Assembly (NCBI GenBank): GCA_017436025.1
Contig: JAFSDX010000021.1
Coordinates: 1 to 53,323, forward strand
Direction of reading: 5' to 3'
DNA: 53,323 nucleotides
Origin: Thermoguttaceae bacterium
GTDB taxonomy: Bacteria > Planctomycetota > Planctomycetia > Pirellulales > Thermoguttaceae
Below are positions 22,730 to 43,420 of the stretch, in pieces (position 1 is the first letter of the stretch; each line of letters starts with the position of its first letter). A program made the translations under genes and the position numbers. The notes beneath the pieces are model-generated. The model was not told the DNA's origin. It saw only the letters and a program-made list of their open reading frames with translations, and ran no database searches.

Positions 22730-22824
22730 AGATTGAGCGCGGCGACGCTTTGGCAACGCCGGTTGGGTTTGGTCGGGAAACGGCGAAATTCGACCGGCTT
22801 TTTTGTTGGAAGGAGGGCGACGTT

Positions 22825-25053
22825 ATGTCGTTGAAGAATTGTTGGACGGCGGCGCTTCTCGGCGTCGCGACGTTGGGCGCGGCGTTCGGAACGAGCGCGG
22901 CGGCGCTGGAAACGCAAGAAACGCAACCGGTTCAAACGACGCAACCGTCGGCGAACGTTGGAGTTGCGCGGGGCGGCGAAGCGGGCGAAAAACCGGCGGT
23001 TCGCGGCGCTTGGGGAGACTCGGCGACCGTTTCGGTTGCGCTTGCCGACGCGTTCCGCTTTACGTTGGCCGGGGAGGAGCGCGTCGGTTTCGCCGGAGCG
23101 GGCGACGTCGCGTCGAGCGTCGAAGTTCGCGAGTTCGAGACGGCGCCGGACGACCGTTTTCCGCGCCGACCGGTTCGAACGGAGACGCGTTCCTGCGTCG
23201 ACGTCGCGTCGGGCTTGAAAATTACTTGCGAAAAAACGACTTACGTCGACTTTCCGATTGTCGAAACGGTCGTTTGGTTCGAGAACGTTTCGACGAAAAA
23301 TTCGCCGAACTTGCGCGACGTTTGGGCGGTCGACGTCCTTTTGCCGACCGGCGCGGCGCCGCGACTCGGTTCCGGCGTCGGCGAAGACTCCGACCCGAAA
23401 CGCAATTATCTCTTTGAAACGTCGGCGCTTAACGCGGGCGAGAGGCGGTCGTTTACTCCGCGGGAAGCGTATTCGTCCTTCGGCGCGTTTCCGTTTTTCA
23501 CCCTGGAAGGCGACGCGACGTCGTACATTCTCGCCGTCGGTTGGACGGGACGCTGGACGGCCGATTTTGAAGCGGTCGGCGCGGCGGACGGCAAGGCGGA
23601 CGGAGCGTCGACCGGCGTTCGATTTCGCGCCGGGCAGGCGGGCGTCGATCTTTACTTAAAGCCGGGCGAAAAGGTTCGGACGCCGCGAGTTACGCTCGTT
23701 CAATTTCCGACCGGAACGGACGGGACGAACCTTTGGCGCGATTGGTTCCGGCGCTACATTATGCCGCGCGAACGGGGCGTCGTCTTGCGACCGAAGTTAG
23801 CGCTCGACGTCTTTTACCGCGGCGAACTTTACGACCAAGTAACGGCGGAGGAGCAGATCGCGGCGATTCGCAAGTTGCGCGCGCTCGGGTATCCTTGCGA
23901 CGCGCTTTGGATCGACGCCGGTTGGTATCGCCGTTCGCAAGAGCCGGTTCCGGAAGGGGTTACGTCGATCGGAACTTGGTTCCTCGCCGGCGATTGGACG
24001 CCCGACCCGGCGCGTTTTCCGAACGGGTTGAAACCGGTCGCGGAGGAGTTGGCGCGCGGGTCGGAGAACGGCGGCGTCGGCGGAAAGCTCGTCCTTTGGT
24101 TCGAGCCGGAACGCGTTCACCGAAGTTGCGTAACGCCGGAACTTAGCCGTTATCTCGTTCCGAACTGCGAAGCGGTCGAGAGTTGGCGGATGAACTTGGC
24201 GGCGCCGGAAACGGTCGACTATTTGTCGCAAACGATCGGCGACGCGCTCGTCGAAAACGGCGTCTCGATTTACCGTCAAGACTCGAACGGCGCCGGGCCG
24301 CTCGTCTTTTTGGAGTCGTTGGAGGCGAACGACCCGAATTTTAACGACCGCAAGGGGTTCGCTGAAAACCTTTACGTTCAAGGGCTTTACGAGTTTTGGT
24401 CGAACTTGAAAAAGCGCGTTCCGGACTTGATTTTCGATACCTGCGCGAGCGGCGGACGGCGCAACGACTTGGAGATTCTGCGACACGGCGCCGTTCCGCT
24501 CCATTATTCCGACGTCGGTTATTTCGATTTCGTCGAGAAGGAGCGCGTTCGCGACGTCTTGAACCGCTGGTTTGTTTATTGCAAAAACATCGACCCGCAC
24601 GACTTCGATTTTGAGCGCGGCGAGTACGACGTTTTTAAGACGACGATCGATTTGTCGGCGTTTTCGACGGTTCGGCCTTACTTCCTTGAGAACCCGAGCG
24701 AAGCGAATCGGCGGTACGTCGAGCGGTTTTTGACGGTCGGCGAAACGCTCGTCGACGGCGATTATTACCTCTTAAACGACGGGTTTTCGGTCGACGCTTG
24801 GGCCGCTTGGCAGTTCGACGACGCGGAGCGGGGCGTCGGGTTCGTCGCGGTCGTTCGGAACGAAAAAGCGGAGGACGCGACGCTAAACGTCGTTCCGAAA
24901 GCGCTTTGCGCCGACGCTCGTTACCGTTGGACGAATCTTGAAACGGACGAAACTCGGGAAATCGCCGGCGCCGACGCGTTGCGAACCGGCGTCGAGGTCG
25001 CGTTGCCGCCGCGTTCCGGCAGTGTTTGGCGATACGAACGCGTTGAACCTTAA
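22825..25053 (+). CDS. Secreted alpha-galactosidase, glycoside hydrolase family 36-like
   Basis: 742 residues. The ATG at 22825 has AAGGAGGG 7 bases before it and begins a signal peptide (hydrophobic 9-20, cleavage near Ala27), whereas the open frame upstream gives no signal. An N-terminal beta-sandwich of about 300 residues precedes a TIM barrel: ALWIDAGWYRR (about 371), KLVLWFEPERV (about 424), the nucleophile Asp486 in IYRQDSN, CASGGRRNDLE (about 541-551) and the likely acid/base Asp563 in HYSDVGY. Domain order, catalytic spacing and length match GH36 alpha-galactosidases of about 730 residues. It would release alpha-1,6-linked galactose from raffinose-type sugars or galactomannans outside the cytoplasm. 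Specificity within GH36 is not settled. Confidence 0.88.
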   Translation: MSLKNCWTAALLGVATLGAAFGTSAAALETQETQPVQTTQPSANVGVARGGEAGEKPAVRGAWGDSATVSVALADAFRFTLAGEERVGFAGAGDVASSVEVREFETAPDDRFPRRPVRTETRSCVDVASGLKITCEKTTYVDFPIVETVVWFENVSTKNSPNLRDVWAVDVLLPTGAAPRLGSGVGEDSDPKRNYLFETSALNAGERRSFTPREAYSSFGAFPFFTLEGDATSYILAVGWTGRWTADFEAVGAADGKADGASTGVRFRAGQAGVDLYLKPGEKVRTPRVTLVQFPTGTDGTNLWRDWFRRYIMPRERGVVLRPKLALDVFYRGELYDQVTAEEQIAAIRKLRALGYPCDALWIDAGWYRRSQEPVPEGVTSIGTWFLAGDWTPDPARFPNGLKPVAEELARGSENGGVGGKLVLWFEPERVHRSCVTPELSRYLVPNCEAVESWRMNLAAPETVDYLSQTIGDALVENGVSIYRQDSNGAGPLVFLESLEANDPNFNDRKGFAENLYVQGLYEFWSNLKKRVPDLIFDTCASGGRRNDLEILRHGAVPLHYSDVGYFDFVEKERVRDVLNRWFVYCKNIDPHDFDFERGEYDVFKTTIDLSAFSTVRPYFLENPSEANRRYVERFLTVGETLVDGDYYLLNDGFSVDAWAAWQFDDAERGVGFVAVVRNEKAEDATLNVVPKALCADARYRWTNLETDETREIAGADALRTGVEVALPPRSGSVWRYERVEP

Positions 25054-25271: not shown

Positions 25272-25300
25272 TTGACGTCGCGTTTTGCCTCCGGTATAAT
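25272..25300 (+). promoter_or_regulatory. Promoter of the pentapeptide-type gene cluster
   Basis: TTGACG (25272-25277), 17-bp spacer, perfect TATAAT (25295-25300), about 78 bases before the ATG at 25378. It is the only strong promoter found in front of the three paralogous genes. Confidence 0.68.
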
Positions 25301-25377: not shown

Positions 25378-27843
25378 ATGCGCGGTACATTGAAAAAGAC
25401 AAGCGCGGCGCTCGGAACGCTCTTGACGGCGCTTCTTTTGGTCGCGGCGACGGCGTTTAGCGCGGACGACAAGACGTCGTATTTTCCGTCTATGCCGGAC
25501 GAGCCGTTCGAGTCGACGGCGAATATCGACCCGCAAACGACCGTTTTTCTTTACTTAGGCGAGGCCGCCGACGAGAATCTGCGCCGGATTTACGCCGAGT
25601 ACAACAAGGAAATCGTCGACAAGGCGGCGGATTCGTTCTATCGATACTTGGGCGAAGAGGAGGTGGAATGGAGGGAACTCCTCAAGGCGGCGGCGATCGA
25701 ACACGACGTCGCCTTGAGCAAGATCGAGGCCGAGTCGAAAACGCCGGAGGAAAAAGCGGAGCGCGTCCGACTTTTTTACAAGCGTTTGCGCGTTCGCGAT
25801 TCGTTGTCGTTGGAGGAGAAGCGGAGGCGAGCGATCGAAAGAGAAACGGAGCGTTATTGGTATAAAGTCCGCGGGCCCGCGCCTTATGAACGAGCGAAAC
25901 TCCGCGCGGCGCAGGCTCGTTGGCGGCGAATCGAGCGCGATTTTTGGCCGAGCGTCGCCGAAAAAATCGATTGGGAAAACTTGAATCTCGACGGCGCGCG
26001 CTTCGATTTTCGGCCGGAAGTTGCGGACGTCGACGATTACGAGGACCTTTACAACGGATTTTGGGACAAATTCGGCGATCCTTACCCGGTCAGCGGGCGG
26101 ACGTTATGTTGGGGGATTCCGGCGACGCTCGAACAGTTGAGCCAAACTAAGTCTTGGCGCGAGAAGACGTTGCGCGACGCCGAGTTTTACCGCGTCTTCG
26201 CCGACGCGTCGTTCGCCGGTTGGACGCTCGAAGACTGCCGCTTCTTGGCGAACCAATACAACCAAGGGGCGACCGAGTTTGATTCGAACGACGGAACCGG
26301 TTTGCAGCCCGAGTTGCGAGTTCCCGGCGACCTTTGGCGAAGCTCCGGGAAAATCGGCTCGAAGTCCGATAAAATCGTCGGTTACGACGCTTGCGATTTT
26401 ACCGACGCGACGCTTCGCAACGTTTATTTCGACCGAACGGCGACGATTACGTTCGAACAGTTCGCGGCGACGCGCAGTTACAAGGAGGACGAAATTGTCG
26501 CCGAGTTCGGCTTTATGCTTGCCGGTTGGGACTTTAGCGGCAAAAACGTCGGCGATTTGTTCTTCGAAACCGGAATGTACGAGCCCGAGCGAAGCGCGAT
26601 TCGGAGGAAAGGCGGGAAGACCGGCTGGGCGTCGCTAAAACTCGACGGCGCAAGGTTTGAGCCGCGCGGCGACCGAACGTATTTTAAGAGTTTGCCGGAC
26701 GAGCTTTGGCGTTCGTCGCGGCGGTTCCGCGAGAAAGATTTGTCCGGCGCGACTTTCGACGTCGAGCTTAACGGCGGCGATTTCAGCGGATTCGATCTGA
26801 CCGGCGCGACGATGCGTTTGACGAGCCCTCCTTTGAAGTTGCGGCTTGACGGCGCGACGATTCGCGGGCTAAAAGTCGTCGATCTCGACAGGCGCAACAA
26901 TTTTATCGGGGCGATCGGCGCCGAAACGTTGCGGACAACGAAAAGCTGGCAAGACAAGGACTTGCGCGACGTCGATTTCACTGAAATGTTCAACTTTGAC
27001 GGAATCGACGACTTGCGCGGGTTCGACTTAAGGGGCGCCCGATTCGCGTTTCAAGCGCAAACGAGCGAAATGGAAAAAATCGACCTAACCGGCGCGAAAA
27101 TCGACGGTTGCGAGTTCGTCAAAAAAGGATTCCCGACGTTGCGACAACGAGTAACGACCGAAACTTGGCGGGTCGGGCGCTTCGGCTTGCTTCGCGACGG
27201 CAAAACGCCGATTATTTTGCCGGGTGCGTTTGCCGATTGGGAAAAGTTTACGCGGAGCCCGGAGTTCGCCGCGAAGGATTTGACCGGGAAAAATTTGCTT
27301 TGTCCCAATATGATCGGGCGCGATTTGAGCGGATTTAACTTAACAAATAGTTGGATTTGCGCTCCTTCGCTTGACGCGGTCGACTTTACCGACGCGACGC
27401 TCGATTGGGCGACGCTGACGCAAAGCGAAACGGCGGACGGCGAACGACGGCGCGTTTTCTTGCGGGCGGAAGGGCTCAAAACGTCGAAAAATTATCGAAC
27501 GAAAAATTTCCGCGGCGTTCGGATTCGCGGCGCCGTCGATTGGAGCGGTTTCGATTTCGCCGGAATCGACTGGACGGACGCGGTCGTCGTTGCGGAATCG
27601 ACTCGCGGAGACGGCGCCGGTTTTGCCGACGGCGCAAGTTTCGACGACGCGGAGATCGGCGGCGCTCGATTTGAACCGCCTCTCTCGGCGACGCAAATCC
27701 GTTCGACGCGGACGTTTAAGGAAGGCCGGTTCGACTTCGCCGCGTTGGAGAAGGAAGCGGAGAACGACGAAAGCGCTCGTCGACTTCTCGCCGAGTTGCG
27801 GCCCGATTCCGACGCCGCGTCGCCGACGGAAAACGCCGATTAA
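25378..27843 (+). CDS. Secreted pentapeptide-like repeat protein, one module (paralogue 1)
   Basis: 821 residues, ATG start with GGAGG upstream. Signal peptide with cleavage near Ala29 (FSA/DDK). After a short strand (TTVFLYL, about 52-58) comes a charged helical region of about 140 residues. Pentapeptide-like coils follow from DWENLNLDGARF (about 200) to near the end: repeated A(D/N)(L/F)xx-type steps such as GGDFSGFDLTGATMR and LDGATIRGLKV. Between coils sit segments of the form L-x-x-T-x-S-W/Y-x-x-K-x-L (QLSQTKSWREKTL, QFAATRSYKEDEI, TLRTTKSWQDKDL). The fold expected of such repeats is a right-handed quadrilateral beta-helix. I recall similar interrupted repeats in planctomycete exported proteins, but know no function. 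First gene of a three-paralogue run. Confidence 0.82.
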   Translation: MRGTLKKTSAALGTLLTALLLVAATAFSADDKTSYFPSMPDEPFESTANIDPQTTVFLYLGEAADENLRRIYAEYNKEIVDKAADSFYRYLGEEEVEWRELLKAAAIEHDVALSKIEAESKTPEEKAERVRLFYKRLRVRDSLSLEEKRRRAIERETERYWYKVRGPAPYERAKLRAAQARWRRIERDFWPSVAEKIDWENLNLDGARFDFRPEVADVDDYEDLYNGFWDKFGDPYPVSGRTLCWGIPATLEQLSQTKSWREKTLRDAEFYRVFADASFAGWTLEDCRFLANQYNQGATEFDSNDGTGLQPELRVPGDLWRSSGKIGSKSDKIVGYDACDFTDATLRNVYFDRTATITFEQFAATRSYKEDEIVAEFGFMLAGWDFSGKNVGDLFFETGMYEPERSAIRRKGGKTGWASLKLDGARFEPRGDRTYFKSLPDELWRSSRRFREKDLSGATFDVELNGGDFSGFDLTGATMRLTSPPLKLRLDGATIRGLKVVDLDRRNNFIGAIGAETLRTTKSWQDKDLRDVDFTEMFNFDGIDDLRGFDLRGARFAFQAQTSEMEKIDLTGAKIDGCEFVKKGFPTLRQRVTTETWRVGRFGLLRDGKTPIILPGAFADWEKFTRSPEFAAKDLTGKNLLCPNMIGRDLSGFNLTNSWICAPSLDAVDFTDATLDWATLTQSETADGERRRVFLRAEGLKTSKNYRTKNFRGVRIRGAVDWSGFDFAGIDWTDAVVVAESTRGDGAGFADGASFDDAEIGGARFEPPLSATQIRSTRTFKEGRFDFAALEKEAENDESARRLLAELRPDSDAASPTENAD

Positions 27844-27870
27844 CGGGCGTTTGTTCCGGCGTTTAGCGGG

Positions 27871-27900
27871 TTTTTGATTTTTGAAATTTGTTTGAAATGT
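27871..27900 (+). repeat. Dispersed TTTGAA-type intergenic motif
   Basis: A divergent copy (TTTTTGAAATTTGTTTGAAA then TGTTGG) between paralogues 1 and 2. Confidence 0.35.
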
Positions 27901-27959
27901 TGGCGCGTCGACGAGCGGCTTGGCGGTCGTCGGCTTTGGAAAACGACGGAGATTGAACG

Positions 27960-30900
27960 ATGAAACGTTATTGGAACGGAAAACAAACGGTCGCGGCGTT
28001 CGTCGCGGCGGCGTTTTGCCTCTTCTCGACCTTGGCGGCGTTCGGCGCGAACGACAAAACGTCGCGTTCGTCGACTTCGCCGGTCGAGCCGTTCGAGTCG
28101 ACGGCGAAAATCGACCCGCAAACGACCGTATTTCTTTACTTAGCCGATTGCGCCGACGAGAATCTGCGCCGGATTTACGTCGAATACAACAAGGCGATTC
28201 GGGCGGCGTTTGTCGAGTCGGCGGGCGCGGACGCGTTCGAGCGATTCCTCAAAGAAGAGGAGGAGCGCGAAGCGGCGAAGTTGATCGAAATTAAAGAGGC
28301 GGCGGCGCTCGAACACGACGCGGCGTTTCGCAAGATCGAAGCGGAGTCGAAAACGCCGGACGAAAAGGCGGAGCGCGTCGAGCGTTTTTACGAGGATTTG
28401 GGCGTTCGGCGACCCGGAACGACGCCGAAGGAATGGGCGGCGGCGCGGGAGCGGTCGATCGAGCTGGAATCGAACCGTTATTTGCTCCGACTTTGGCCCC
28501 TTCGACCGCGAGAACGGGCGCGACTTCGTGTCGCGCAAGAAACTTGGCGGTTGATCGAAAGCAAGATTTGGCCGGAACTTAGCGTCGATTGGGAAAACTT
28601 GAACCTCGACGGCGCCCGATTCGATTTCCGTCCGGAAGTCCTTTACGACCTCGACGCGCCCGGGCGGGGCTTCGAGAAATTCGGCGGTTGGCGCTGGGGG
28701 ATTCCGGCGACGCTCGAAGAGTTGAGCCGTTCTAAGAGTTGGCGCGACAAGACGTTGCGCGGCGCCGACTTTTACCGCGTCTTTGCCGACGCGTCGTTCG
28801 CCGGTTGGACGCTTGAAAACTGCCGCTTTTGGGCGGACGAAAGCGGGCAAGGGACGGCGTTCGACGTCGCGTCGAAAGCGCCGGGCGTCGGAGCGGAAAC
28901 GCGGCGACCGGGCGAGCTTTGGCAAGGCGCGGCGACGGAGAACGCGGAGTCGGAAGGAAACGCAAACGGCGGCGCCAACGTCGGTTACGTCGGTTGCGAT
29001 TTTGCCGACGCGACGCTGAAAAACGTTCTTTTCGACGGCTCGGCGACGATTACGTTCGCGCAATTCGCCGCGACGCGCAGTTTTAAGGAGGACGAAATCG
29101 ACGCCGAGTTCCGCTTCCCGCTCGACGGTTGGGACTTCGCCGGGAAAAACGTCGACGCGTTGCGAACCGAAACGCCGGTCGCGGCGGAAGTTGCGTCGGA
29201 CGAAACGGCGGACGACGCGGCGTCGTTCGCGGCGGAGAAAACGGCGGGCGACGAATCGGAGCGCGTCGTTTATCTTTACTTAAAGAAGGCGCAAAGCGAG
29301 AAAGCGCAAGGGATATGGAACGCTTGGTCGGAAAAGGTTCGGGCGGCGAAAGCGGAAAACGCGGTTCGGCTCGACGCGCTTTTCTTTTACGAACGAGAAC
29401 GGAGCCCGGAGGCGCCCGTCAAAGCGACTTGGTCGTCCGAGTACTGCGGAATCCTCGAACGAACTTGGGCGCGCGTCTTCGACGGAACGGTCGAAACGTT
29501 GGAAACGGCGAAAATCGACGTCGATTGGGAAAATTTAAATCTCGACGGCGCAACGATTAGCGAAGCGCCGCGGCGTTGCGTTAACGTTAGCGCGGAGGAG
29601 GAACCGGAGCCTTACGGCGACGTTAAATGCGTTCTCTTTTACGACGACGTCGGAAACGTCGAAGTCGAATACGGGATTCGGGCGACGCTCGCCGAGTTAC
29701 GTCGAACCGTAAACTGGCGCGAAAAACGACTTAGCGACGCGAACTTTGTGCGCGCTTGTTTCGACGAATCGTTCGCCGGCTGGACGTTGACGAAGTGTTG
29801 TTTTACCGCGCTCTTGCACGGCGGATTGGGCGGCTGCGAAAGAAGCGAGGAATGGTTGAGCCGAAATCCCGACGGTTGCAAGCGCGCCGATTTTACCGAC
29901 GCGACCCTCGACCGCTGTTTCTTTGACGACGCTGCGGCGATAACGTTCCAACAGTTCGCGTCGACCCGAAGTTACCGCGAGGACAAGATTTGCGTTTCCT
30001 TCTATTTTCCGCCGGACGGTTGGGATTTCGCCGGGAAGAATATCGGCGACGTCGACTTCGGCCCTTATCGGAACGAAATTTCCTATTTGAAGCGGCGCGC
30101 GAAGCTCGACGGCGCCCGATTCGAGCCGACGTCGAAGGTTTATCCGGCGCTTCCGGAGGCGGTTTGGCGCAACTCCCGCGCTTGCAAGGAGAAAGACTTG
30201 GCGGGCGCGACGTTTTACTCGACGCTCGGCGGCGGCGATTTTTCCGGGTTCGACTTGACCGGCGCGACGATGCGAGGCGTCCGCGTCAAGAGCCTCGACG
30301 GCGCGACGATTCGCGGGCTGAGAGTCGTCGCCGGAACCAATTACGGCAATTCGGAGCGGGAACGGATCGAGTTTCGGCGCCAACGCGAATACGGCAAGAT
30401 AACGAAGGAAGCGATTTGCGCGACGAAAAGCTGGCGCGACAAGGACTTGCGCGACGTCGAGTTCAACTGGTTTTACGACCTGACCGGCGTCGACTTCTCC
30501 GGTTGCGACCTGCGCGGCGCGACGTTCCGCTTCGCGAAGGGGTACGGAAACGAACTGGAAAAAGCGCCGTTCTTCGAAGACGTCGACTTTACCGACGCTA
30601 ACATCGACGGTTGCAAGTTTTACGTCTTCGCGAAAGAGGACGAGCGCAGTTGGCCGACGCTCGAGCAGATTATGTCGACCGAAACTTGGAAATCGGGCGA
30701 CTTAGAACGCTTGAAGACGTGCGTCTTGCCGGACGAAGCGCAAAAAATCGTCGACCGCCGCCTCTTCGAAGCGAGTCCGGAGTTCGCCGCGAAGGATTTT
30801 AGCGGGAAGGAAATCAAGTTCCGCGATATGTCCGGTTGGGATTTAAGCGGTTTGAATTTAACGGGTTGCGAAATAAAAACCTGCTCGCTTTGGGAGGCGA

Positions 30901-32684
30901 ACCTGAGCGGCGCGATTCTCGACGGCGCGAGGTTGCGGCAGGATTACGCGCCTACCGCCAACGCGACGACGGAGCGTTTGCATCGCCAATTGTTTCTGAA
31001 TCTCGAACAGTTGGCCGAGACCGATAATTATCGGCGCAAAAGTTTCCGCAATTTTGCGCTTTGGGCGAACGTTCGGGACGGTCGTTTCAGCTTCGTTGGG
31101 CTCGATTTGACGAACGCGAGCTTTGCCGCTCAATTAGGCGGTTTCGACAAGAAAAAATGGGCGTCGCGCGATTTTACCGACGCCGAGATCGAAGGCGCCA
31201 ATATGCTCGCCTATATGACGAAGAAGCAACTCCTTGCGACGAAAACGTTTAAGGAAGGGCGGCTTGATTACGAAGCGGTCGATAAGATTCGCTTGCGGAA
31301 GGAGCGTGTCGGCGACGAACTCCGCGCCGAGTACGAGCGCCTGCAAGCGGAGAAGGCGAAAAACGCCGAAAACGCGGAGGAACCGGCCGAAAACGGCGAC
31401 GACGCGAAGGAATCGACGCCGGAGACGCGAACGTTTTACCTTTACGACGTAACGACGCGAACGAACGAGTCGGGAGAAACGGATTGGGAGTCGCTAAGTC
31501 TCGACGGCGCGACGCTTTCCGATGATCCGTTCGAAATTTTCGACGAAGACGTCGGGGAGGAAAACGGCGTTCCGGCGACGCTCGCGCAGTTGCGGCGGAC
31601 GAAAACTTGGCGCGAAAAAACGGCGCGCGAGGTCGTTTTCAACGCGTCGCTCGTCGGCGAATCGTTCGCCGGTTGGACGTTCGAACGTTGCGAGTTCGGC
31701 GGGCGTTGGAGAACGTCAAACGTTTGTCCCGTAAAGAATTGCGACTTTGCCGACGCGACGTTCGACGACGTTTATTTCGGCGCGCCCGGGATAACGTTCG
31801 AACAGTTCGCCGCGTCGCGGAGCTTCAAGGAGGACAAAATCGTCGCCGAGTTTACGTTCCCGCTCGTCGGTTGGGACTTTGCCGGGAAAAACGTTGCGAA
31901 TATTGAAGTTCCGACTTGGGACGGCGCCAAGCTCGACGGAGCGCGGCTCGAAACGCCGCGAACGACGAACCGTTGGGCTTGGGGACTGATCGCGGGCGGT
32001 CTCGACGCCGGGCCGCGCGACAAGGCGCCGCGTTGGGCGAAAGTCGTTCCGGAATCGCTTTGGCGGGAAACGGAAGCGTTTAAAAATAAGGATTTAAGCG
32101 GAACGTTCTTTTGGCCGTCCTTGAACGGCGGCGACTTTTCCGGGTTCGATTTGACCGACGCGTTCCTCCTCGACGGGCCGGGCGAAAATTTCAAGCTCGA
32201 CGGCGCGACGATTCGCGGAATTAAATTTCGCGAGCGACACAATGTAACGAAAGCGCCGTTCTTCGGCGCGATTCCGGCGTCGGCGATTTATCGAACGAAA
32301 AGCTGGAAAGACAAGGACTTGCGCGGCGTTTGTTTCGGCGTTTATTTCGATTTAAAGGGCGCGGATTTCGCCGGTTGCGACCTGCGCGGCGCGGTTTTTT
32401 CGACGCCGGTCGACGGGGCCGACTTTAGCGGAGCCGATTTGCGCGGCGCGAAGTTCGTTTGGCGCGCTTTTTACGATTCGTTTGAAGATAAACCGTTGAA
32501 AAAGCCGGAGTTCGGGAAAAAGGGCGCGAATTTTAGCGGAGCCGATTTGCGCGGCGCCGACTTCCGAAACGCCGAAGGCGCGGCGCTCCGTTCAAACTTC
32601 AAAGGCGCGAAAATCGACGAAACGACGCTCGGTCTCGCCGAACGACTTGTCGAAAAAGAACGGTTGCAACGCGAGAAAGAATAA
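27960..32684 (+). CDS. Secreted pentapeptide-like repeat protein, three modules (paralogue 2)
   Basis: 1574 residues, ATG start with GGAG upstream. Signal peptide with cleavage near Ala30 (FGA/NDK). The following ~60 residues are nearly identical to paralogue 1 (EPFESTAKIDPQTTVFLYL). Three modules are visible, each opening with a strand such as TVFLYL, VVYLYL (about residue 436) or TFYLYD (about 1157). A charged helix and a DWENLNLDGA-type coil come next. The first module is short, ending after WDFAGKNV; the second is complete and ends with KEGRLDYE; the third finishes in regular pentapeptide repeats (FSGADLRGAKF, FSGADLRGADFRNA). No enzyme motif was seen. It is probably cotranscribed with its neighbours. 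Confidence 0.82.
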   Translation: MKRYWNGKQTVAAFVAAAFCLFSTLAAFGANDKTSRSSTSPVEPFESTAKIDPQTTVFLYLADCADENLRRIYVEYNKAIRAAFVESAGADAFERFLKEEEEREAAKLIEIKEAAALEHDAAFRKIEAESKTPDEKAERVERFYEDLGVRRPGTTPKEWAAARERSIELESNRYLLRLWPLRPRERARLRVAQETWRLIESKIWPELSVDWENLNLDGARFDFRPEVLYDLDAPGRGFEKFGGWRWGIPATLEELSRSKSWRDKTLRGADFYRVFADASFAGWTLENCRFWADESGQGTAFDVASKAPGVGAETRRPGELWQGAATENAESEGNANGGANVGYVGCDFADATLKNVLFDGSATITFAQFAATRSFKEDEIDAEFRFPLDGWDFAGKNVDALRTETPVAAEVASDETADDAASFAAEKTAGDESERVVYLYLKKAQSEKAQGIWNAWSEKVRAAKAENAVRLDALFFYERERSPEAPVKATWSSEYCGILERTWARVFDGTVETLETAKIDVDWENLNLDGATISEAPRRCVNVSAEEEPEPYGDVKCVLFYDDVGNVEVEYGIRATLAELRRTVNWREKRLSDANFVRACFDESFAGWTLTKCCFTALLHGGLGGCERSEEWLSRNPDGCKRADFTDATLDRCFFDDAAAITFQQFASTRSYREDKICVSFYFPPDGWDFAGKNIGDVDFGPYRNEISYLKRRAKLDGARFEPTSKVYPALPEAVWRNSRACKEKDLAGATFYSTLGGGDFSGFDLTGATMRGVRVKSLDGATIRGLRVVAGTNYGNSERERIEFRRQREYGKITKEAICATKSWRDKDLRDVEFNWFYDLTGVDFSGCDLRGATFRFAKGYGNELEKAPFFEDVDFTDANIDGCKFYVFAKEDERSWPTLEQIMSTETWKSGDLERLKTCVLPDEAQKIVDRRLFEASPEFAAKDFSGKEIKFRDMSGWDLSGLNLTGCEIKTCSLWEANLSGAILDGARLRQDYAPTANATTERLHRQLFLNLEQLAETDNYRRKSFRNFALWANVRDGRFSFVGLDLTNASFAAQLGGFDKKKWASRDFTDAEIEGANMLAYMTKKQLLATKTFKEGRLDYEAVDKIRLRKERVGDELRAEYERLQAEKAKNAENAEEPAENGDDAKESTPETRTFYLYDVTTRTNESGETDWESLSLDGATLSDDPFEIFDEDVGEENGVPATLAQLRRTKTWREKTAREVVFNASLVGESFAGWTFERCEFGGRWRTSNVCPVKNCDFADATFDDVYFGAPGITFEQFAASRSFKEDKIVAEFTFPLVGWDFAGKNVANIEVPTWDGAKLDGARLETPRTTNRWAWGLIAGGLDAGPRDKAPRWAKVVPESLWRETEAFKNKDLSGTFFWPSLNGGDFSGFDLTDAFLLDGPGENFKLDGATIRGIKFRERHNVTKAPFFGAIPASAIYRTKSWKDKDLRGVCFGVYFDLKGADFAGCDLRGAVFSTPVDGADFSGADLRGAKFVWRAFYDSFEDKPLKKPEFGKKGANFSGADLRGADFRNAEGAALRSNFKGAKIDETTLGLAERLVEKERLQREKE

Positions 32685-32800
32685 CGGGTTAAGTCGCCTT
32701 TGACCGGCGCGGTCGCGACAAAGCGGGAACGCGACGCGGCGTTCGCAAACGCGTCGGCGCGGCGGAGGAGTAACGCGGTTTCGACCCGGTTTTTAGCGGG

Positions 32801-32820
32801 GCTTTGAAAAGTTTGAATTT
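32801..32820 (+). repeat. Dispersed TTTGAA-type intergenic motif
   Basis: CTTTGAAAAGTTTGAATTTT between paralogues 2 and 3. Confidence 0.45.
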
Positions 32821-32899
32821 TGTGTTGATTGAAAATCGGACGGCGCGACGGCGGCAAAACGTCGCGCTCAACGCTAATATTTTAACGGAGAAAGAAGCG

Positions 32900-35800
32900 A
32901 TGAAACGGTTGGAGAAACGGAGTCGAGGGAGCGGGAGCGCGGCGGCGCTTTGTCGCGCAGTCGCGTTCGGGTTGGCGGCGTTACTTGGCGTCGCGACGGT
33001 CGCGGCGGCGGAGGAAAAAACGAACGTCGGCGACAAGGCGGCGCAAGCGCAAACGTCGGCGAATTCGTCGGTTAAGGAAGACGATTCGCGGCGCGTTTAC
33101 GTCTTTTTGAACGAAGGTTCCGATAACGCCGCTTGGAAGCGTTGGCGCGAAGAGGCGCTCGCGCTCGAAAAAAAGAAGAGAAAAGAAGGCGTTCTAAACC
33201 GTTATAACGCCGAAGAAAACGAAAAGATCGCCGAGGAGCGAAAGGCGTTCAATGAGGAATGGGAAAAGCGGGCGCAAGAAACGCGGCGTCGCGATTGGCG
33301 GCAAACGCTCGAAGAAGACCGGCGGAGCGCTAGCGAACGAGCGGAAGCCCGACTCGCGGGCGACGTCGCGGAGGAATTGGAACGCGACGTCTTGCCGCGA
33401 ATCGAGATCGATTGGGAAGCGGTAAGTCTCGACGGAGCAACGATTCGCGACGAAGAGGCGGTTTACTTCCCGATTCATATCGACTTCGTTGGGAACGACA
33501 AGGAAAAGGAACCGCCGTTTTACTCGAGTTGGCGATTCGGGATTCCGGCGACGTTGGCCGACGTCAAGCGGACGAAGAGTTGGCGCGAAAAAACGCTCCG
33601 CAACGTCGGGCTCGGGAGCGCGCTTCCGGGCGAGTCGTTCGTCGGCTGGACGTTCGAAAATTGCCGATTCGGTTTGCAGGGAAAGCCGTTTATGTCGTTG
33701 CGTTTCAATACTTGCGACTTTGCCGACGCGTCGATTAGCGGCGACTTTTGGCCGTCCGGCGCGATTACGTTCGAACAATTCGCCGCGACGCGAACCTTTA
33801 AAGAAGGCGCGACGAGCGGGAAAAACGCGAACGGCGAGAAGAGCGAAAACGCCGAAAACGTCGCGAAGAACCCGAACGTTCCGCGGCTTCAGTTCCAGTT
33901 CGCCGTCGACGGTTGGGAGTTCGGCGCGCTCGAAAACGTTCGAACGTCGTCGTTTAGCGACGGGCAAGGGCGTCTGCAGATTTCGCCGGGAGCGTCCGAA
34001 AGCGCTTGGAACGATCGGGTTTGGCCCGGCGACCCGATTTTGGCCGAATTGGCGAGGAAAGCCGATCCGAGTTCGGGTTTAACGACGACGCCGGCGGTTT
34101 CCTTCGAGCGGTTCCCGACGGACGCGGCGACGGGAAGGATTTGGCGCAACTCCCAATATTACAAGGATAAGAGCCTTGCCGGCGTCGCGTTTTGCGGTTG
34201 GCTCAACGGCGGCGACTTCTCCGGTTTCGACTTGACGAACGCGGTCGTTTTCGCGCCGAACGCCAATCTCGGCTTCAAACTCGACGGCGCGACGATTCGC
34301 GGGCTCCGGGTCGTCGACGGGCGCGGGAGCGAAGGCGCGATTACCAAAGAGGCGCTTTACTCGACGAAAAGCTGGAAACAAAAGAACTTGCGCGGCGTCC
34401 GTTTCACTTCGACGTTCGACCTGCGCGGCGCCGACTTCTCCGGTTGCGACCTGACCGACGCTTACTTCGCGACGTCGCTCGAAGGCGCGAAATTCGACGG
34501 CGCGACGATAAACGGTTGTCGTTTCGAACGTTGGTGTTGGGCGGACGCGCCGGAAGGCGACGACTTGTCGCAACGTCCGCTGACGGTCGAACTTCTCGAA
34601 AAGTCGGCGAACGGACGCGGGGCGCAAGAAAACTTGGCTTCGTTGATTGGCGTTGAGTTCCCGGAAGAAATTCAAAATCGGCTCGACCGTCGCCGTTTCG
34701 AGTCGCGCGAAGCGTTCGCGAAAAAGGACTTTTCCGGCGCGACGCTCCGCTTCCGCGATATGAGCGGTTGGGACTTAAGAGGTTTCGATTTAAGCGGTTG
34801 CGAAATTATTACGTCGTCGCTCGAAGGCGCGGATTTGACCGGCGCGACGATCGACGGCGCAACCTTTACGCAACTCGTTGGGGATAAAAAGATTAACGAA
34901 TATCAAAGTTTGAATCTTTCCCGAATGAAAGTTTTGCTGACGGGAGCGCAACTCGCGTCGACGACGACTTACGAACGCGACGATTGGCGCGGCGTTTCGT
35001 TAATCGGAAAGCTCGATTTTACCGGGTTTAAGTTCGGCAATTGGAAGGGCGCGCGAATTAATCAATACGGCGGGTTCGAAGGCGCCGACTTTACCGACGC
35101 GGAAATTTACGGCGTTTTTCATTCGACGTATCCGCGCCCGGAATATGTCGAGAAAACGCGGACGTTTAAGGAAGGTCGCTTGAATTACGACGAATTTTTC
35201 TATTCGGAAAGAGAAGTCGCGGAATTGCAACGGCGGTACGCGCTCTTCAAAGAGAAGGGGGCGGAAGCGCTGCAAGCCGAAGACGACGCTTGGGAAGCGG
35301 CGCTCGCCGACAAGCGAATCTTTTACGTTTACTTGCGAAACTCGCTCAACGGCGCCGCGGCGGCGGGAGCGTCGAGCCTTTCCGAACGTTCGGGTTCCGC
35401 GTCGCAAGTCGATTCCGCAAGCGGGCTTATGTTTGAAAAGGAAAGCGACGCGGAAGCGAAAAAGACCGCGACGGCTTTCGAAATTGAGCGCGCCGGTCGA
35501 GAACGTCGTTATTTGAAGAGAAAAAAGGACGACGGAACGTTTAAGAAATATTGCGACGAAGAAAAGGCCAAGGGCGCGTCCGACCGCGACGCGGAAGCGA
35601 AAGCGACGGAGCGTCTTCAACGAGAAACGGCGGCGGAGGAAGAAATCGTCGTTCGCGGTCGCGGTTGGTTTAATTGGGAGTTGGCAAATCTCGACGGCGC
35701 AATTATTTCCGACGTTAACGGCTTGCGGTTCGAAGGAAGCGAGCAATTGGTTTTCGGCGTTCCGGCGCAGTTTTACTTCCTTTATCGAACGAAAAACTGG

Positions 35801-35929
35801 ACGGAAAAACGTTGGCGCGGCGTTCGCTTCCTCGGCGGCTTTAAACCTTCCGACTTCGAGGGTTGGACGCTCGAAAATTGCGAATTTGGCGATTCGCCGA
35901 AGCCTTCCGACGTCTTGATCGGGCCTTGA
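32900..35929 (+). CDS. Secreted pentapeptide-like repeat protein, one full and one cut module (paralogue 3)
   Basis: 1009 residues. The ATG at 32900 is preferred to the start of the open frame at 32804: GGAG lies 11 bases upstream, and it begins a signal peptide (hydrophobic 18-34, cleavage near Ala37). Module 1 has the strand RRVYVFL, a Lys/Glu-rich helix, the DWEAVSLDGATI coil, three T-x-S-W/F-type segments, and ends KEGRLNYDE. A second module starts at RIFYVYLRN, but the protein stops shortly after the second block (GWTLENCEFGD), where its relatives run on for some 500 residues. This looks like a 3' truncation, or a natural short end. It is more diverged from paralogues 1 and 2 than they are from each other. 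Confidence 0.82.
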   Translation: MKRLEKRSRGSGSAAALCRAVAFGLAALLGVATVAAAEEKTNVGDKAAQAQTSANSSVKEDDSRRVYVFLNEGSDNAAWKRWREEALALEKKKRKEGVLNRYNAEENEKIAEERKAFNEEWEKRAQETRRRDWRQTLEEDRRSASERAEARLAGDVAEELERDVLPRIEIDWEAVSLDGATIRDEEAVYFPIHIDFVGNDKEKEPPFYSSWRFGIPATLADVKRTKSWREKTLRNVGLGSALPGESFVGWTFENCRFGLQGKPFMSLRFNTCDFADASISGDFWPSGAITFEQFAATRTFKEGATSGKNANGEKSENAENVAKNPNVPRLQFQFAVDGWEFGALENVRTSSFSDGQGRLQISPGASESAWNDRVWPGDPILAELARKADPSSGLTTTPAVSFERFPTDAATGRIWRNSQYYKDKSLAGVAFCGWLNGGDFSGFDLTNAVVFAPNANLGFKLDGATIRGLRVVDGRGSEGAITKEALYSTKSWKQKNLRGVRFTSTFDLRGADFSGCDLTDAYFATSLEGAKFDGATINGCRFERWCWADAPEGDDLSQRPLTVELLEKSANGRGAQENLASLIGVEFPEEIQNRLDRRRFESREAFAKKDFSGATLRFRDMSGWDLRGFDLSGCEIITSSLEGADLTGATIDGATFTQLVGDKKINEYQSLNLSRMKVLLTGAQLASTTTYERDDWRGVSLIGKLDFTGFKFGNWKGARINQYGGFEGADFTDAEIYGVFHSTYPRPEYVEKTRTFKEGRLNYDEFFYSEREVAELQRRYALFKEKGAEALQAEDDAWEAALADKRIFYVYLRNSLNGAAAAGASSLSERSGSASQVDSASGLMFEKESDAEAKKTATAFEIERAGRERRYLKRKKDDGTFKKYCDEEKAKGASDRDAEAKATERLQRETAAEEEIVVRGRGWFNWELANLDGAIISDVNGLRFEGSEQLVFGVPAQFYFLYRTKNWTEKRWRGVRFLGGFKPSDFEGWTLENCEFGDSPKPSDVLIGP

Positions 35930-38310: not shown

Positions 38311-38346
38311 AAGCGTTCCGGGGTTCGCGCCTCGGAGCGCTTTTTT
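38311..38346 (+). terminator. Strong intrinsic terminator after the small membrane protein gene
   Basis: A 13-bp stem (38311-38323 with 38330-38342, two G-T pairs), loop TTCGCG, and six T (38341-38346). Confidence 0.82.
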
Positions 38347-38396
38347 GGTTTTTTTCGGGACGTTCGGGCGGCGGGGTTGGCGAAAATATTTTGCGC

Positions 38397-38421
38397 AGGT
38401 AGGACGCCTGGCGTCCTACCT
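38397..38421. promoter_or_regulatory. Perfect 25-bp palindrome next to a promoter, possible operator
   Basis: AGGTAGGACGCC and its exact reverse complement around a single central T. It ends 4 bases before the -35 box at 38426. No T-run follows, so a terminator is unlikely; a regulator-binding site is the simplest reading. Confidence 0.5.
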
Positions 38422-38425
38422 TGGG

Positions 38426-38454
38426 TTGACGTCGGAAATTTTTGGAAGGATAAT
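38426..38454 (+). promoter_or_regulatory. Promoter of the unknown paralogue pair
   Basis: TTGACG (38426-38431), 17-bp spacer, GATAAT (38449-38454), about 75 bases before the ATG at 38528. Confidence 0.58.
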
Positions 38455-38527
38455 AGTAAGCGAGTTGGGAGCGCGGCGTTCGAAAAGCGGCGACGTTAGT
38501 TTTAGCGCAAAGAAAACGGCGGACAAA

Positions 38528-40207
38528 ATGGCGAGCAAATTGGAATATCGGCAAATTAAGGGGCGCGACGAGGAAATTCCCGTCTTTCGGAACCTTTCGC
38601 GGAGCGTCGTAAAACGAGGCGCGGGCAAGATTTATTGGCGGATGAAAGGAACGGAGGAAAAGGGGATAGGCTGTTGGGACGACGTCGTTTGGCTCGACTG
38701 CGAAACTGGCGATATTTGTTTCGGCGACCGCTTTGTAAGGGAAGGATGGAGCGACGTTTACGACGACGAGATCGAGAACGCGAAGCGCTGGGACGAGAAG
38801 AGCGACGAATATAAATATCCGAGCCGTATTGCGTATAAGCCCCCTTATTTTTCGCAGCCCGATTTCTTTACGCCGTCTTGCCCTCAGCCGTCTTGGAACC
38901 CGTTCGATAAAGAGTTTAGGTATTCCGACGAACCATATGCTTATCGGGGCGCGCGGAAATGTTGGGACGCGTCCGTTCACGTTTGGCCGTTGGGCGTTTT
39001 GAACGAATGGCGCGGGCCGGTCGACGAGATCGAGCCGCGTTTGGCGGCGCGGTTGGCGGAGGCGGCGGAGTTCAACTTCGGGCTCGGTTTCGACGGCCCG
39101 GAGGAGACGGCGGACGACGACGCGTTCCTAAAAAACGCGAACGAAATCGTTCGGTTTTACGAGGCGCGCGAGGCGTTTCGTCGCAAAAAAGCGGAGGAAG
39201 AGCGGGAAAACGCCGAGGACGACGAAGACGAAAACGAGTTCGAATATTGGGCGAACGAGGCGTTCGAGGATTGGCGCGCGGAAGAAAAGGCGAATGAAGA
39301 AAACGACGAAAACCGTTTCGATTATTGGAGTAACGACGAGTTCGCGGCGCTGGAAAAGGGGAAATACGTCCCAAAAAAGAAGAAGCCGACGAACAAAAAA
39401 AAGGACGCGAACGAGAGCGAAGAAACCGACGAGAGCGATATTCCGATTTACTGGAACGCCGCGGAAGTCAAGAAATTTTGGCGATTTTGCCGAGACGGGG
39501 AAGTCGTTTACGAAGAACCGTTAAAAGTCTACTTCTGGTGTTCCTCGTTGAAATTGGGGAAAGATTTCGAGGAGTATTTGAAGGAAAGGAGGAAAGAGAC
39601 GGAAGCGTATCTGGTTCGTTCGAAAAGCGAGGAGCGGCGTCGCGCGTTGACGCGTTGGTTCGATTTTTACGGTAATTGGTGGTCTTCGAATGAAAGGCCG
39701 GTTTTTCTTGGGACGTTGAGAAATTTGGTCGCCGTCGCGAAGGCCGGAACGTCCGGGCGAACGGCGCCGCCGAAGAGCGTCGAGTTGGAAAACGGCGAAA
39801 TTGTTTTCGATTACGGAGCGGAACGTTCGGACGCGTTTTCGGACGATTGGCGAGAGCGGCTTCCGGCGTTAATCGCTTTCCGTTACGACTGTTACCGCGC
39901 CTATTTCGATTCGGCGAAGACCGTTTACGCCGCCATCGTCGGGGCGTCGGTTCGCGAAATGAAAAAGCTCGAAGTTTGGGTTTCGCCCGGTTGCGATACG
40001 ACGGAGCTTTGCGCGGGGCGGCCGGCGAAAGGAGCGAACTGGTTGAATTTGGGAAAGGTCGCCGATTTTTACGAGCTTAAACGCGGCGAATACTGGGGTT
40101 CGGGAATGAAGAAAGCGAAGAAAATTGGGAAGAGACACGAAGCGCGGCATTGGTTGGCGGGGGAAATTTCGCGGCGCTTGGAAGCGGCGTTGAAGGCGGG
40201 GAATTGA
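38528..40207 (+). CDS. Uncharacterised cytosolic protein, paralogue A
   Basis: 559 residues. The frame is open from 38345, but the start is set at the ATG at 38528 because the promoter lies upstream of it and the product then aligns from its first residue with the paralogue at 40289. Family not recognised. No signal peptide or membrane segment. The N-terminal ~70 residues (IKGRDEEIPVFRNLSRSVVK, IYWR, VWLDCETGDICFG) and the C-terminal ~140 (SDDWRERLPALIAFR, LNLGKVADFYELKRGEYWGS, EISRRLEAALKAG) are shared with paralogue B. The middle has an acidic, Trp/Tyr-bearing low-complexity stretch (EDDEDENEFEYW, repeated as ENDENRFDYW), a Lys-rich link, and a segment missing from B. Confidence 0.72.
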   Translation: MASKLEYRQIKGRDEEIPVFRNLSRSVVKRGAGKIYWRMKGTEEKGIGCWDDVVWLDCETGDICFGDRFVREGWSDVYDDEIENAKRWDEKSDEYKYPSRIAYKPPYFSQPDFFTPSCPQPSWNPFDKEFRYSDEPYAYRGARKCWDASVHVWPLGVLNEWRGPVDEIEPRLAARLAEAAEFNFGLGFDGPEETADDDAFLKNANEIVRFYEAREAFRRKKAEEERENAEDDEDENEFEYWANEAFEDWRAEEKANEENDENRFDYWSNDEFAALEKGKYVPKKKKPTNKKKDANESEETDESDIPIYWNAAEVKKFWRFCRDGEVVYEEPLKVYFWCSSLKLGKDFEEYLKERRKETEAYLVRSKSEERRRALTRWFDFYGNWWSSNERPVFLGTLRNLVAVAKAGTSGRTAPPKSVELENGEIVFDYGAERSDAFSDDWRERLPALIAFRYDCYRAYFDSAKTVYAAIVGASVREMKKLEVWVSPGCDTTELCAGRPAKGANWLNLGKVADFYELKRGEYWGSGMKKAKKIGKRHEARHWLAGEISRRLEAALKAGN

Positions 40208-40288: not shown

Positions 40289-41665
40289 ATGGCGAAAGAA
40301 TTGAAATATTGGCCAATTAAGGGGCGCGACGAGGAGATTCTCGTTTTTGAGAATCTTTCGCGGAGCGTCGTAAAGCGCGGCGCGGACAAGATTTATTGGC
40401 GGTTGAAAGACGTTCGGGAAAAGCGGTTTGGAAGCTGGGACGACGGCGTTTGGCTCGACTGCGAAACCGGCGACGTTCGCTTCGGCGAGCGTTGCGTTAA
40501 GGAATGTTGGGCCGATCATAACGACGTTTCGTTTGCGCGAGATTTGAGGCGGTCGTCGTATCGTCGGCAATGCGTTTACTCTTGGTATTTAGGGGGGGTG
40601 AGCGAATGGCGCGGGCCGGTCGCCGAGATCGAACCGCGTTTGGCGGCGCGCTTGGCGGAGGCGGCGGAGTTTAATTTCGGACTCGATTTTACCGGGCCGG
40701 AGGAGGAGAATTCGTTTTTGGCGGCGGCGAACGAAGTCGCGCGGTTTTACGAGACGCGAGCGCGGCTCGAGCGGTTGGCGGAGGAGGCGGACGCGCGGGG
40801 CGAGAAATATTGGGATCGCGATTTTCCCGAAACGTCGGCGGAGGAACTCGAAGAGTTTCGGCGAATAAAAGATCGCTTCGATCTTGAAGATTTCGACCCG
40901 CGAATCTTTCGGGTTCCCGTTTGTTGGCGCGTTGAGACGGCGAGGCGGGACGGCGGCTCGGAATCGGCGACGCAAAAATTGATTTTTGACGCGAATGCGT
41001 CGGCGTTGGTTCCGTATTATTCGACGCGATCGCGCGAAATCGGGCGGCGTTGCAAGGCGGCGTTGCGGAAGATTCCGGCGGACGAGACAAGGGCGCGTCG
41101 GAAAGCCGAAGAGTATTTTCAAAGGTTGCAAGACGATTTAAATTACGGGTTTAATTTCGACGGCGTCCGAGCCGATAATTTCCCGCGTTTGGGCGAGTTG
41201 GACGAGCTGATCGCCGAAGCGCAAGCCGGAACGTCGAGCGAAGGGGAGGAAGCGAGCGGGGAATTGGCGCCCGCGACCCGTTCCGACGCGCTTTCGGACG
41301 ATTGGCGGGAGCGGTTGGCGTCCCTTCTCGAGTATCGGCTCGACCGTTGCAACGCTCTTTTTCAAGCGGCGAAAGCGCTTTACGTCGAGATTATAGGAAC
41401 GAAAGTTCGTTGGATGAAAGGGCTCGACGTTTGGGTCGCGCCCGGCGGAGAGCGCGTCGAAACTTCTAGCGCGGGAGGGCGTCCGCAGAACGCGTCTTGG
41501 TTGAAAATTGGAAAGTTGACCGAGTTTTACGAGAAAAAGCGCGGCGTCTATTGGGGCTCCGGCGTTAAAAAAGCGGATAAAATTTCGCGAAAAGACGACG
41601 CGCGGCAATGGTTGGCGCGGGAGATTGGGCGGCGTTTGGAAGCGGCGTTGAAGGCGGCGGATTGA
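40289..41665 (+). CDS. Uncharacterised cytosolic protein, paralogue B
   Basis: 458 residues, ATG start with only a weak ribosome site. It shares the N-terminal and C-terminal blocks of paralogue A at protein level, with long runs of identical DNA near the start (for example AATTAAGGGGCGCGACGAGG), so the pair arose by a fairly recent tandem duplication. It lacks A's acidic repeat and Lys-rich link, and instead has RFDLEDFDPRIFRVPVCWR and its own middle section. No catalytic motif recognised. The conserved Trp, Arg and Tyr positions in both ends suggest a folded, constrained protein. It is probably cotranscribed with A, as the 81-base gap has no clear promoter. Confidence 0.72.
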   Translation: MAKELKYWPIKGRDEEILVFENLSRSVVKRGADKIYWRLKDVREKRFGSWDDGVWLDCETGDVRFGERCVKECWADHNDVSFARDLRRSSYRRQCVYSWYLGGVSEWRGPVAEIEPRLAARLAEAAEFNFGLDFTGPEEENSFLAAANEVARFYETRARLERLAEEADARGEKYWDRDFPETSAEELEEFRRIKDRFDLEDFDPRIFRVPVCWRVETARRDGGSESATQKLIFDANASALVPYYSTRSREIGRRCKAALRKIPADETRARRKAEEYFQRLQDDLNYGFNFDGVRADNFPRLGELDELIAEAQAGTSSEGEEASGELAPATRSDALSDDWRERLASLLEYRLDRCNALFQAAKALYVEIIGTKVRWMKGLDVWVAPGGERVETSSAGGRPQNASWLKIGKLTEFYEKKRGVYWGSGVKKADKISRKDDARQWLAREIGRRLEAALKAAD

Positions 41666-41972: not shown

Positions 41973-43058
41973 ATGCGGAAAAACTGCGTTAATTTAGGCA
42001 AGTTGGGCAACCGCGGCTTTACGCTCGTCGAGTTGTTGGTCGTTATCGCGATTATCGGGATTTTGATCGGATTGTTGCTTCCGGCGGTTCAAGCGGCTCG
42101 GGAAGCGGCGCGTCGGATGCAATGCGTCAACCATATGAAACAACTCGGGTTGGCGGTTCACAACTTCGAGTCGGCGACCGGCAAGCTCCCGCCGCTCGAC
42201 ATTAATATGGGGCACGCGGCGATTTTGCCGCTCCTTTGGCCGTATATGGAGCAAGCGGCGATTTACGACGTCCTGAAAAACTGGCGCGGCGCCAAGGACA
42301 AAACGTCCGGGTTCGGCCAAGACCTCTGCCGCTCCAACGCCGGTTCCGGCGACTTTTTTTGGCGCAACACCGACTATATGACCGACGAACTGCGCAAGAA
42401 TTTCAGCGCGGTTCCGTTCGTGAAATGCCCGAGCCGCCGTTCCGGCGTCGCCGGGGCCCCGTTGACAAACACGGAGCTGAAGCACAACGGCGTTACGCAA
42501 AACGGACTCCAATCCTGCGCGTCCTACGGGCCGCTGGCCGACTACGCGCCGGTTATTTACACCGAGTATAAGTCGCCCGCTTGCACGGACTTCCAATGGG
42601 TCGGCGCCGCGGATCAGTACGCCTTGCACGGGAAAAACTTCTCGCCGTTCCGCCGCGCCGTCGTTTCGGTCGCCGGGGACGAGCGGACTTGGCAGCCGCG
42701 CGACGCGATTTCCCGTTGGATCGACGGGACGAGCAACCAATTTATGTTCGGCGAAAAACACATCCCGATCGGGATGCTCGGCGGCGACTCCGTCGCTTGG
42801 CGGCACGACCAAAACTACCTCGCCGCGACGGACTCGAACGGTCGAGACTGGGCGCTGGGCCGCGCCGTTTCGGAAGCGTATCCGCTCGCGTCGGCTCGCG
42901 ATTATACGAACGCGCAACGTTACTTCGGTTCTTGGCACGCGGGCGTCGTCAACTTCGTGATGGGCGACGGCGCGGTTCGCTCGATTTCGACGACCGCCGC
43001 CGGGAAAACGCTCGGCAAGTTCGCGCACGTCAGCGACGGCGGAACGGAATCGCTGTAA
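41973..43058 (+). CDS. DUF1559-family prepilin-like protein, copy 1
   Basis: 361 residues, ATG start with AAGG upstream. A short leader ending NRG is followed by [14 protein letters not shown] and [18 protein letters not shown], the planctomycete DUF1559 N-terminus. Near the C-terminus [12 protein letters not shown] fits the H-X9-DG signature of this family. Such proteins are processed like type IV prepilins and inserted by their N-terminal helix; many planctomycete genomes hold dozens and their function is not known. It has its own promoter. Its protein sequence is closely similar to copy 2 downstream over almost the full length. Confidence 0.93.
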
Positions 43059-43227
43059 AGAACGGCGTTTGCATCGCAACGCGCGGCGAGCTTCAACCTC
43101 CGGCGAGTTTAAACGATCGAAAAAAGCGGAAGAAGCGGTTCGGCGGCGTCGAGGCGAACGCGACGCGGAAAGAAAAATCGTTCGAAACGGAAAATTTGAA
43201 AATTTTTCGAAAACGAGACGAATTTTC

Positions 43228-43256
43228 TTGACCCGTCCGTTCGGCTTTGATATATT
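43228..43256 (+). promoter_or_regulatory. Promoter of the second DUF1559 gene
   Basis: TTGACC (43228-43233), 17-bp spacer, TATATT (43251-43256), about 165 bases before the ATG at 43421. Confidence 0.62.
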
Positions 43257-43420
43257 AGACGTTGAAGGCAAGCCCGACCACGTTTAAAGGTTTGCGACGG
43301 CGCGGCGGACGTCGCGTCGTTGTTTCGTCCGTGTTTTCTGCGTTTTGCACAAAACGCGAACGCGGCTTTTCATCGTTTTTTCTCAACGACCGCGCCGTCG
43401 AGCGCGAGGAGGATGGAGTT

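Follow-up and report, generated by a model that had tools for sequence, protein, structure and literature searches.

Tandem genes for exported-looking pentapeptide-repeat proteins with recurring predicted helical hairpins in a Thermoguttaceae bacterium

Three tandem genes in the analyzed window, a stretch of 53,323 nucleotides from a Thermoguttaceae bacterium, encode long, exported-looking proteins built on one shared module, which is predicted to be a pentapeptide-repeat (Rfr) solenoid with recurring hairpins and not a new fold. The design of these proteins, here called P1, P2 and P3, is real, well conserved and unusual, and it lies within the pentapeptide-repeat superfamily. What is specific to this lineage is the complete module of eight hairpins together with the strand-helix part at its N-terminus. 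Our best guess is that the proteins have a structural function at the envelope or the surface of the cell, and the reading we tentatively prefer, with somewhat less than even confidence, is an operon of exported modular solenoid rods that would serve as an envelope or matrix scaffold.

A sequence-only reading of the same DNA had listed products of 821, 1574 and 1009 residues, and the corresponding open reading frames were found on the forward strand at 25378..27843 (P1, 821 aa, a putatively exported pentapeptide solenoid with one complete module), 27960..32684 (P2, 1574 aa, three modules) and 32900..35929 (P3, 1009 aa when counted from the ATG, with a complete and a truncated module). For P3 an alternative TTG-started frame begins at 32804, and the ATG at 32900 has a GGAG upstream that resembles a ribosome site. 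All three N-termini, which had been assigned signal peptides, begin with a lysine/arginine-rich portion, continue with a hydrophobic one (hydropathy averaged over 19 residues reaches 2.0-2.1 at residues 9-17) and have an A-x-A-like site; judged by inspection and hydropathy they are signal-like, and beyond residue 60 the hydropathy scan detected no second hydrophobic segment in any of the three. The proteins are acidic in composition (calculated pI ~5) and share 30-56% identity in pairwise comparisons across 400-740 residues, with E values down to 1e-113. Searches of Pfam and NCBIfam returned no hit for a PEP-CTERM ending in P1-P3, and no surface anchor or sorting signal was found in them, so that attachment to the surface is a guess.

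The module follows a fixed order of N-terminal strand and charged helices, Rfr coils with hairpins, and a helical cap. Six copies were counted, as the sequence-only reading had estimated, one of them complete in each protein and three truncated. P2 starts with a truncated module (27960..29174, forward strand) comprising the signal peptide, N-terminal part and hairpins 1-2, followed by a complete module of eight hairpins that has a strand and charged helices of its own (29247..31400) and by a third that is truncated after hairpin 4 and ends in plain pentapeptide repeats (31428..32681). In P3 the complete module (33143..35299, forward strand) precedes a truncated C-terminal one (35417..35926), and because the same truncation is kept in three other genomes (G003, G015 and G017) it is not a recent accident.

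Within the modules a hairpin unit of about 12 residues, a helix-turn-helix with the pattern LxxLxxTxSWxxK, recurs about eight times per complete module. The earlier reading had described several distinct block types occurring two or three times; the blocks are there, but the TKSW and ITFxQFAATRS blocks proved to be the same unit, present about eight times in each complete module. This is indicated by a profile of 50 residues that was built solely from other Pirellulales pentapeptide proteins and nevertheless matched the blocks in 16 of 16 family proteins, including P1, P2 and P3, so that the TKSW block, the ITFxQFAATRS block and the KEGRLDY end are one kind of unit in different places. The best score was reached in P3 (45.6 bits), with 28.5 bits in P2 and six scored stretches in P1, whereas 600 shuffled and three reversed decoy sequences gave at most 4.6 bits, which excludes chance as the source of the unit matches. 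The pentapeptide pattern A(D/N)LxX is visible in P1-P3, and PF00805 (8 copies, cut-off 20.2 bits) scored 84.7 bits in P2 (E 3e-24) and 46.6 bits in P3 (E 2e-12), while P1 alone failed with 18.3 bits. No named domain in Pfam or NCBIfam covers the module; NCBIfam and PHROGs yielded generic pentapeptide similarity far under the cut-offs, or unnamed families.

An AlphaFold2 model of P1, calculated from an alignment of 22 sequences from the window and its relatives (mean pLDDT 73, pTM 0.53), predicts a strand, long helices, a beta-solenoid with eight helix-turn-helix elements and cap helices. The N-terminal part (25540..25959, forward strand) contains the predicted beta-strand at residues 55-60 and charged helices at 66-194 and gave no Pfam match above the cut-off. 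The eight predicted hairpins, all on the forward strand, coincide exactly in position with the TxSW-like units: hairpin 1 (LEQLSQTKSWRE; 26128..26163, residues 251-262), hairpin 2 (FEQFAATRSYK; 26452..26484, residues 359-369), which is the most conserved with a mean column identity of 0.87, hairpin 3 (26698..26730, residues 441-451), hairpin 4 in the TTKSWQDK block (26920..26952, residues 515-525), hairpin 5 (27139..27171, residues 588-598), hairpin 6 (27238..27273, residues 621-632), hairpin 7 (27466..27498, residues 697-707) and hairpin 8 (STRTFKEG; 27688..27720, residues 771-781). The C-terminal helical cap with the KEGRLDY end follows at 27721..27798 on the same strand (predicted helices at residues 787-807), and cap-like ends (STWNWKAGRMD..., then a likely helix) are shared by further exported pentapeptide proteins from the genus. 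A model of P2 residues 28-1158 (mean pLDDT 66, pTM 0.41) has the same layout as P1, including a new strand (model positions 409-413) and helices (420-487) at the start of module 2. Since the two predictions share sequences, the P2 model serves to check consistency and does not amount to independent proof.

The models give a beta-solenoid for both P1 and P2, and the hairpin predicted at each T-x-S-W-x-x-K-x-L segment bears out the description of a pentapeptide-like protein in which short helical segments recur among Rfr coils. Among solved structures the best matches in the VIA-align comparison were pentapeptide proteins, AlbG (Z 8.6), MfpA (8.2) and QnrB1 (8.2), mainly over P1 residues 606-816, and the lead of this group is modest since LRR proteins reached Z scores of 7-8 (up to 7.8). 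Foldseek alone gave poor TM-scores on the long model, and the structural likeness is drawn from VIA-align. The alignments of related sequences are shallow and confidence is moderate, which makes the overall shape of the models unreliable; the solenoid and its hairpins are in P1-P3 predicted features.

The sequence-only reading had treated the alternation of hairpins and coils as peculiar to these three genes, which did not hold. Weak matches in related genomes pointed to other Pirellulales pentapeptide proteins with a repeated FTxxQLYSTASYQxKDLxGIxL, and the hairpin unit turned out to be common to many exported-looking pentapeptide proteins of other Planctomycetota, a group whose repeated unit can be written LxxQLxxTxSYxxKxLxGIxL. 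These relatives have signal-like starts and several have PEP-CTERM-like ends by eye, one of which (L100) passes the PEP-CTERM cut-off (TIGR02595, 23.7 bits versus 16). In a search of the phylum with the short unit profile the tally was 89/294, a number that overstates the spread of the hairpin because most matches cover the pentapeptide half only; beyond the order, strong full-length matches to the unit were contributed by a single genome (G326). The analyzed genome itself encodes, also in tandem, two more exported-looking pentapeptide proteins that carry the hairpin unit (L044 2959-5796, contig C238), at least one of which ends like STWNWKAG....

Hairpin-to-hairpin distances in 21 relatives fell at 9 mod 20 in 29 of 96 cases, with 4.8 expected, the favored distances being chiefly 69, 89, 109 and 129 residues; the nominal p-value of 2e-15 is overstated, as the 21 proteins are related. 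Since 20 residues make up one Rfr coil, such spacing means that a hairpin tends to come back on the same face. The spacings in P1 are 108, 82, 74, 73, 33, 76 and 74, none of them at 9 mod 20, and loops are visible between its coils. The 9 mod 20 spacing is therefore a preference in the relatives that is blurred or lost in P1.

Strong matches to a profile of the full module were confined to the same genus-level group, and among the other genomes sampled from the phylum (392 searched in all) the best score was 49.5 bits, of the generic pentapeptide kind. Arrays with complete modules were present in seven closely related genomes (G000, G003, G009, G010, G015, G017 and G019), six of which are Thermoguttaceae metagenome-assembled genomes from rectum, colon or caecum of deer, goat or water buffalo. 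Wherever both sides could be seen, the array was flanked by hslVU and a seven-bladed lactonase gene; both appear unrelated to P1-P3 and offer no functional clue. Among the loci read, no array lies beside hslU in genomes of the group whose HslU is only 59-68% identical. In the window a GH36/melibiase-like gene (22750-25053) is located between hslU and the array; in five relatives whose corresponding loci were read, it was not found there. Several further open reading frames of the window were observed as well: two adjacent, mutually similar ones (38345-40207 and 40289-41665; 620 and 458 aa) without a Pfam match, relatives of which lie, in G003 and G010, on the far side of the lactonase gene, one of 2500 aa (7973-15475) whose sole Pfam match is insignificant (E 0.21) and which has long antisense frames, and two adjacent DUF1559 proteins with N-terminal methylation motifs (41973-44517).

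A scan of viruses with the module alignment yielded no relative, phage records contained generic pentapeptide proteins only, and a search of plasmids for the hairpin unit gave no match. The unit consensus was matched at 49-53% identity in two unannotated human-faecal 'Bacteriophage sp.' scaffolds (L107 and L108; MT835910.1 and MT837755.1), in which no long open frame carrying the motif was found.

The number of array genes varies from one to four per genome. The single protein of G019 combines a P1-type start with a stretch that is 87-99% identical to the third module of P2 in G017, and that of G010 has a P1-like signal region and is P2-like thereafter; as read from these sequences, the array has been reshuffled through module gain, loss and fusion. 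The P1 orthologue of G009 (L041 13858-15246) is interrupted by an in-frame TAG and P1 of G017, at 610 aa, is shortened (L040 11942-13774), and with one copy broken and one shortened the array is partly dispensable. Seven pairwise comparisons gave dN/dS values of 0.24-0.48, which indicate purifying selection, weakest in P3. The array changes faster than its neighbors, with P3 at about 75-80% identity where HslU is at 93-98%.

Upstream of P1 we found a promoter-like TTGACG-N17-TATAAT (25272..25300, forward strand) that matches 11 of 12 consensus positions 106 nt before the ATG, and no other site that strong exists in the window. It is kept at -106 to -108 in six of six genomes (G000, G009, G010, G015, G017 and G019), with a downstream leader that varies between them. 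In the two genomes that were checked, neither P2 nor P3 has such a promoter in front of it, and given the single conserved promoter in front of P1 the three genes probably form one operon.

The best-known pentapeptide repeat proteins are small gyrase mimics of the cytoplasm. P1-P3 resemble members of this class (PF00805, PF13599, PF13576; Rfr fold) in repeat pattern and predicted beta-solenoid and differ from them in their recurrent hairpins, their much greater length and the strand-helix part repeated with each module; the hairpins predicted throughout the beta-solenoid also sustain the earlier view that they are distinct from plain pentapeptide proteins. The closest counterparts are the exported planctomycete pentapeptide proteins, whose hairpin-plus-coil unit (LTxxQLYSTASYQxKDLxGIxL) can be aligned with P1-P3 residue by residue. 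These proteins have longer plain pentapeptide stretches and hairpins that are often whole coils apart, as well as PEP-CTERM-like ends in several cases, and neither an ordered eight-hairpin module nor the N-terminal charged-helix part was seen in them. An injected pentapeptide effector, as described in a review, likewise has a short helix pair in place of one coil face, but combines one such pair with a catalytic domain, whereas P1-P3 have eight per complete module, appear to be exported and are without a catalytic domain. In the open-access literature, a scope that leaves out most subscription journals, no paper on a hairpin-punctuated pentapeptide design was found.

In the reading that we favor, P1-P3 would be exported via Sec and function, in the periplasm or at the cell surface, as long rods that are soluble and acidic. 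One stretch of the Rfr coils would be swapped for a helix-turn-helix every 3-4 coils or so ('helical-hairpin punctuation'), each module would be closed by its helical cap, the hairpins may offer regular binding sites along the rod, and rod length would be set by the number of modules. PEP-CTERM proteins have a general link to envelope sorting and exopolysaccharide, and it is from the signal-like starts and PEP-CTERM-like ends of the relatives that we would place P1-P3 in the envelope or on the surface; their location, partner and scaffold role are what we infer here. A stronger version, in which P1-P3 represent a distinct class of solenoid with one beta-helix face replaced by hairpins at phase-locked intervals, so that similar helical sites stand in a row, and with length and binding capacity tuned by the swapping of whole modules between adjacent genes, we consider doubtful.

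An unlikely but substantial alternative to the scaffold is a role in adhesion or glycan binding, with surface rods whose hairpins and loops would attach the cell to plant fiber, mucus or other cells. The ruminant-hindgut habitat, the fast change of P3 relative to HslU, the rearrangements in module number, which many surface proteins also show, and the GH36-type melibiase just upstream in this genome would all suit such a function, but Pfam and NCBIfam revealed no known carbohydrate-binding or adhesion domain, an anchor is lacking, and the other genomes read do not have the melibiase gene beside the array. Less probable still is a regulator in the lipopolysaccharide layer of the outer membrane that controls envelope stress signaling and permeability. 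That role is reported for YjbI of Caulobacter, like P1-P3 an exported pentapeptide protein of a didermal bacterium, and P1-P3 are exported-looking, pentapeptide-type and acidic. According to the available part of that report, YjbI is a single protein that acts within the lipopolysaccharide layer of the outer membrane; its helix is flanked by two cysteine pairs, its C-terminal tail bears functionally important lysines, and no hairpins or tandem modules are described for it there (PMC12864828). Flanking cysteine pairs and a lysine-bearing tail of this kind are absent from P1-P3; the six cysteines of P1 are scattered (residues 244, 287, 339, 578, 642 and 661) and its tail is acidic.

Drift of expanded repeat genes in the absence of strong function is improbable, more so than either of these roles. 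The TAG-interrupted and shortened copies, the variable gene number and the lack of the locus beside hslU in more distant genomes speak for it, but the dN/dS range argues against full neutrality, promoter and ribosome sites are conserved and open reading frames of 2.5-5.5 kb have stayed intact. A DNA mimic protecting gyrase in the manner of Qnr or MfpA is the least credible reading by far. Weak matches to Qnr/MfpA models and the structural similarity to AlbG, MfpA and QnrB1 recall such proteins, yet those matches reach at most 39 bits against curated cut-offs of 240-500, P1-P3 are several times longer, and we rejected gyrase mimicry because of the export signals on all three proteins. A toxin reading was dropped as well, since P1-P3 lack both a toxin domain and a variable domain at the C-terminus.

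P1-P3 and their relatives point to a branch of large, exported pentapeptide proteins with repeated helix-turn-helix elements, evident module shuffling and, in the relatives, a preferred spacing. Should the hairpins all lie along one face, nature would here have a rule for designing long display rods, one that would also provide a testable handle on a large set of unannotated planctomycete envelope proteins.
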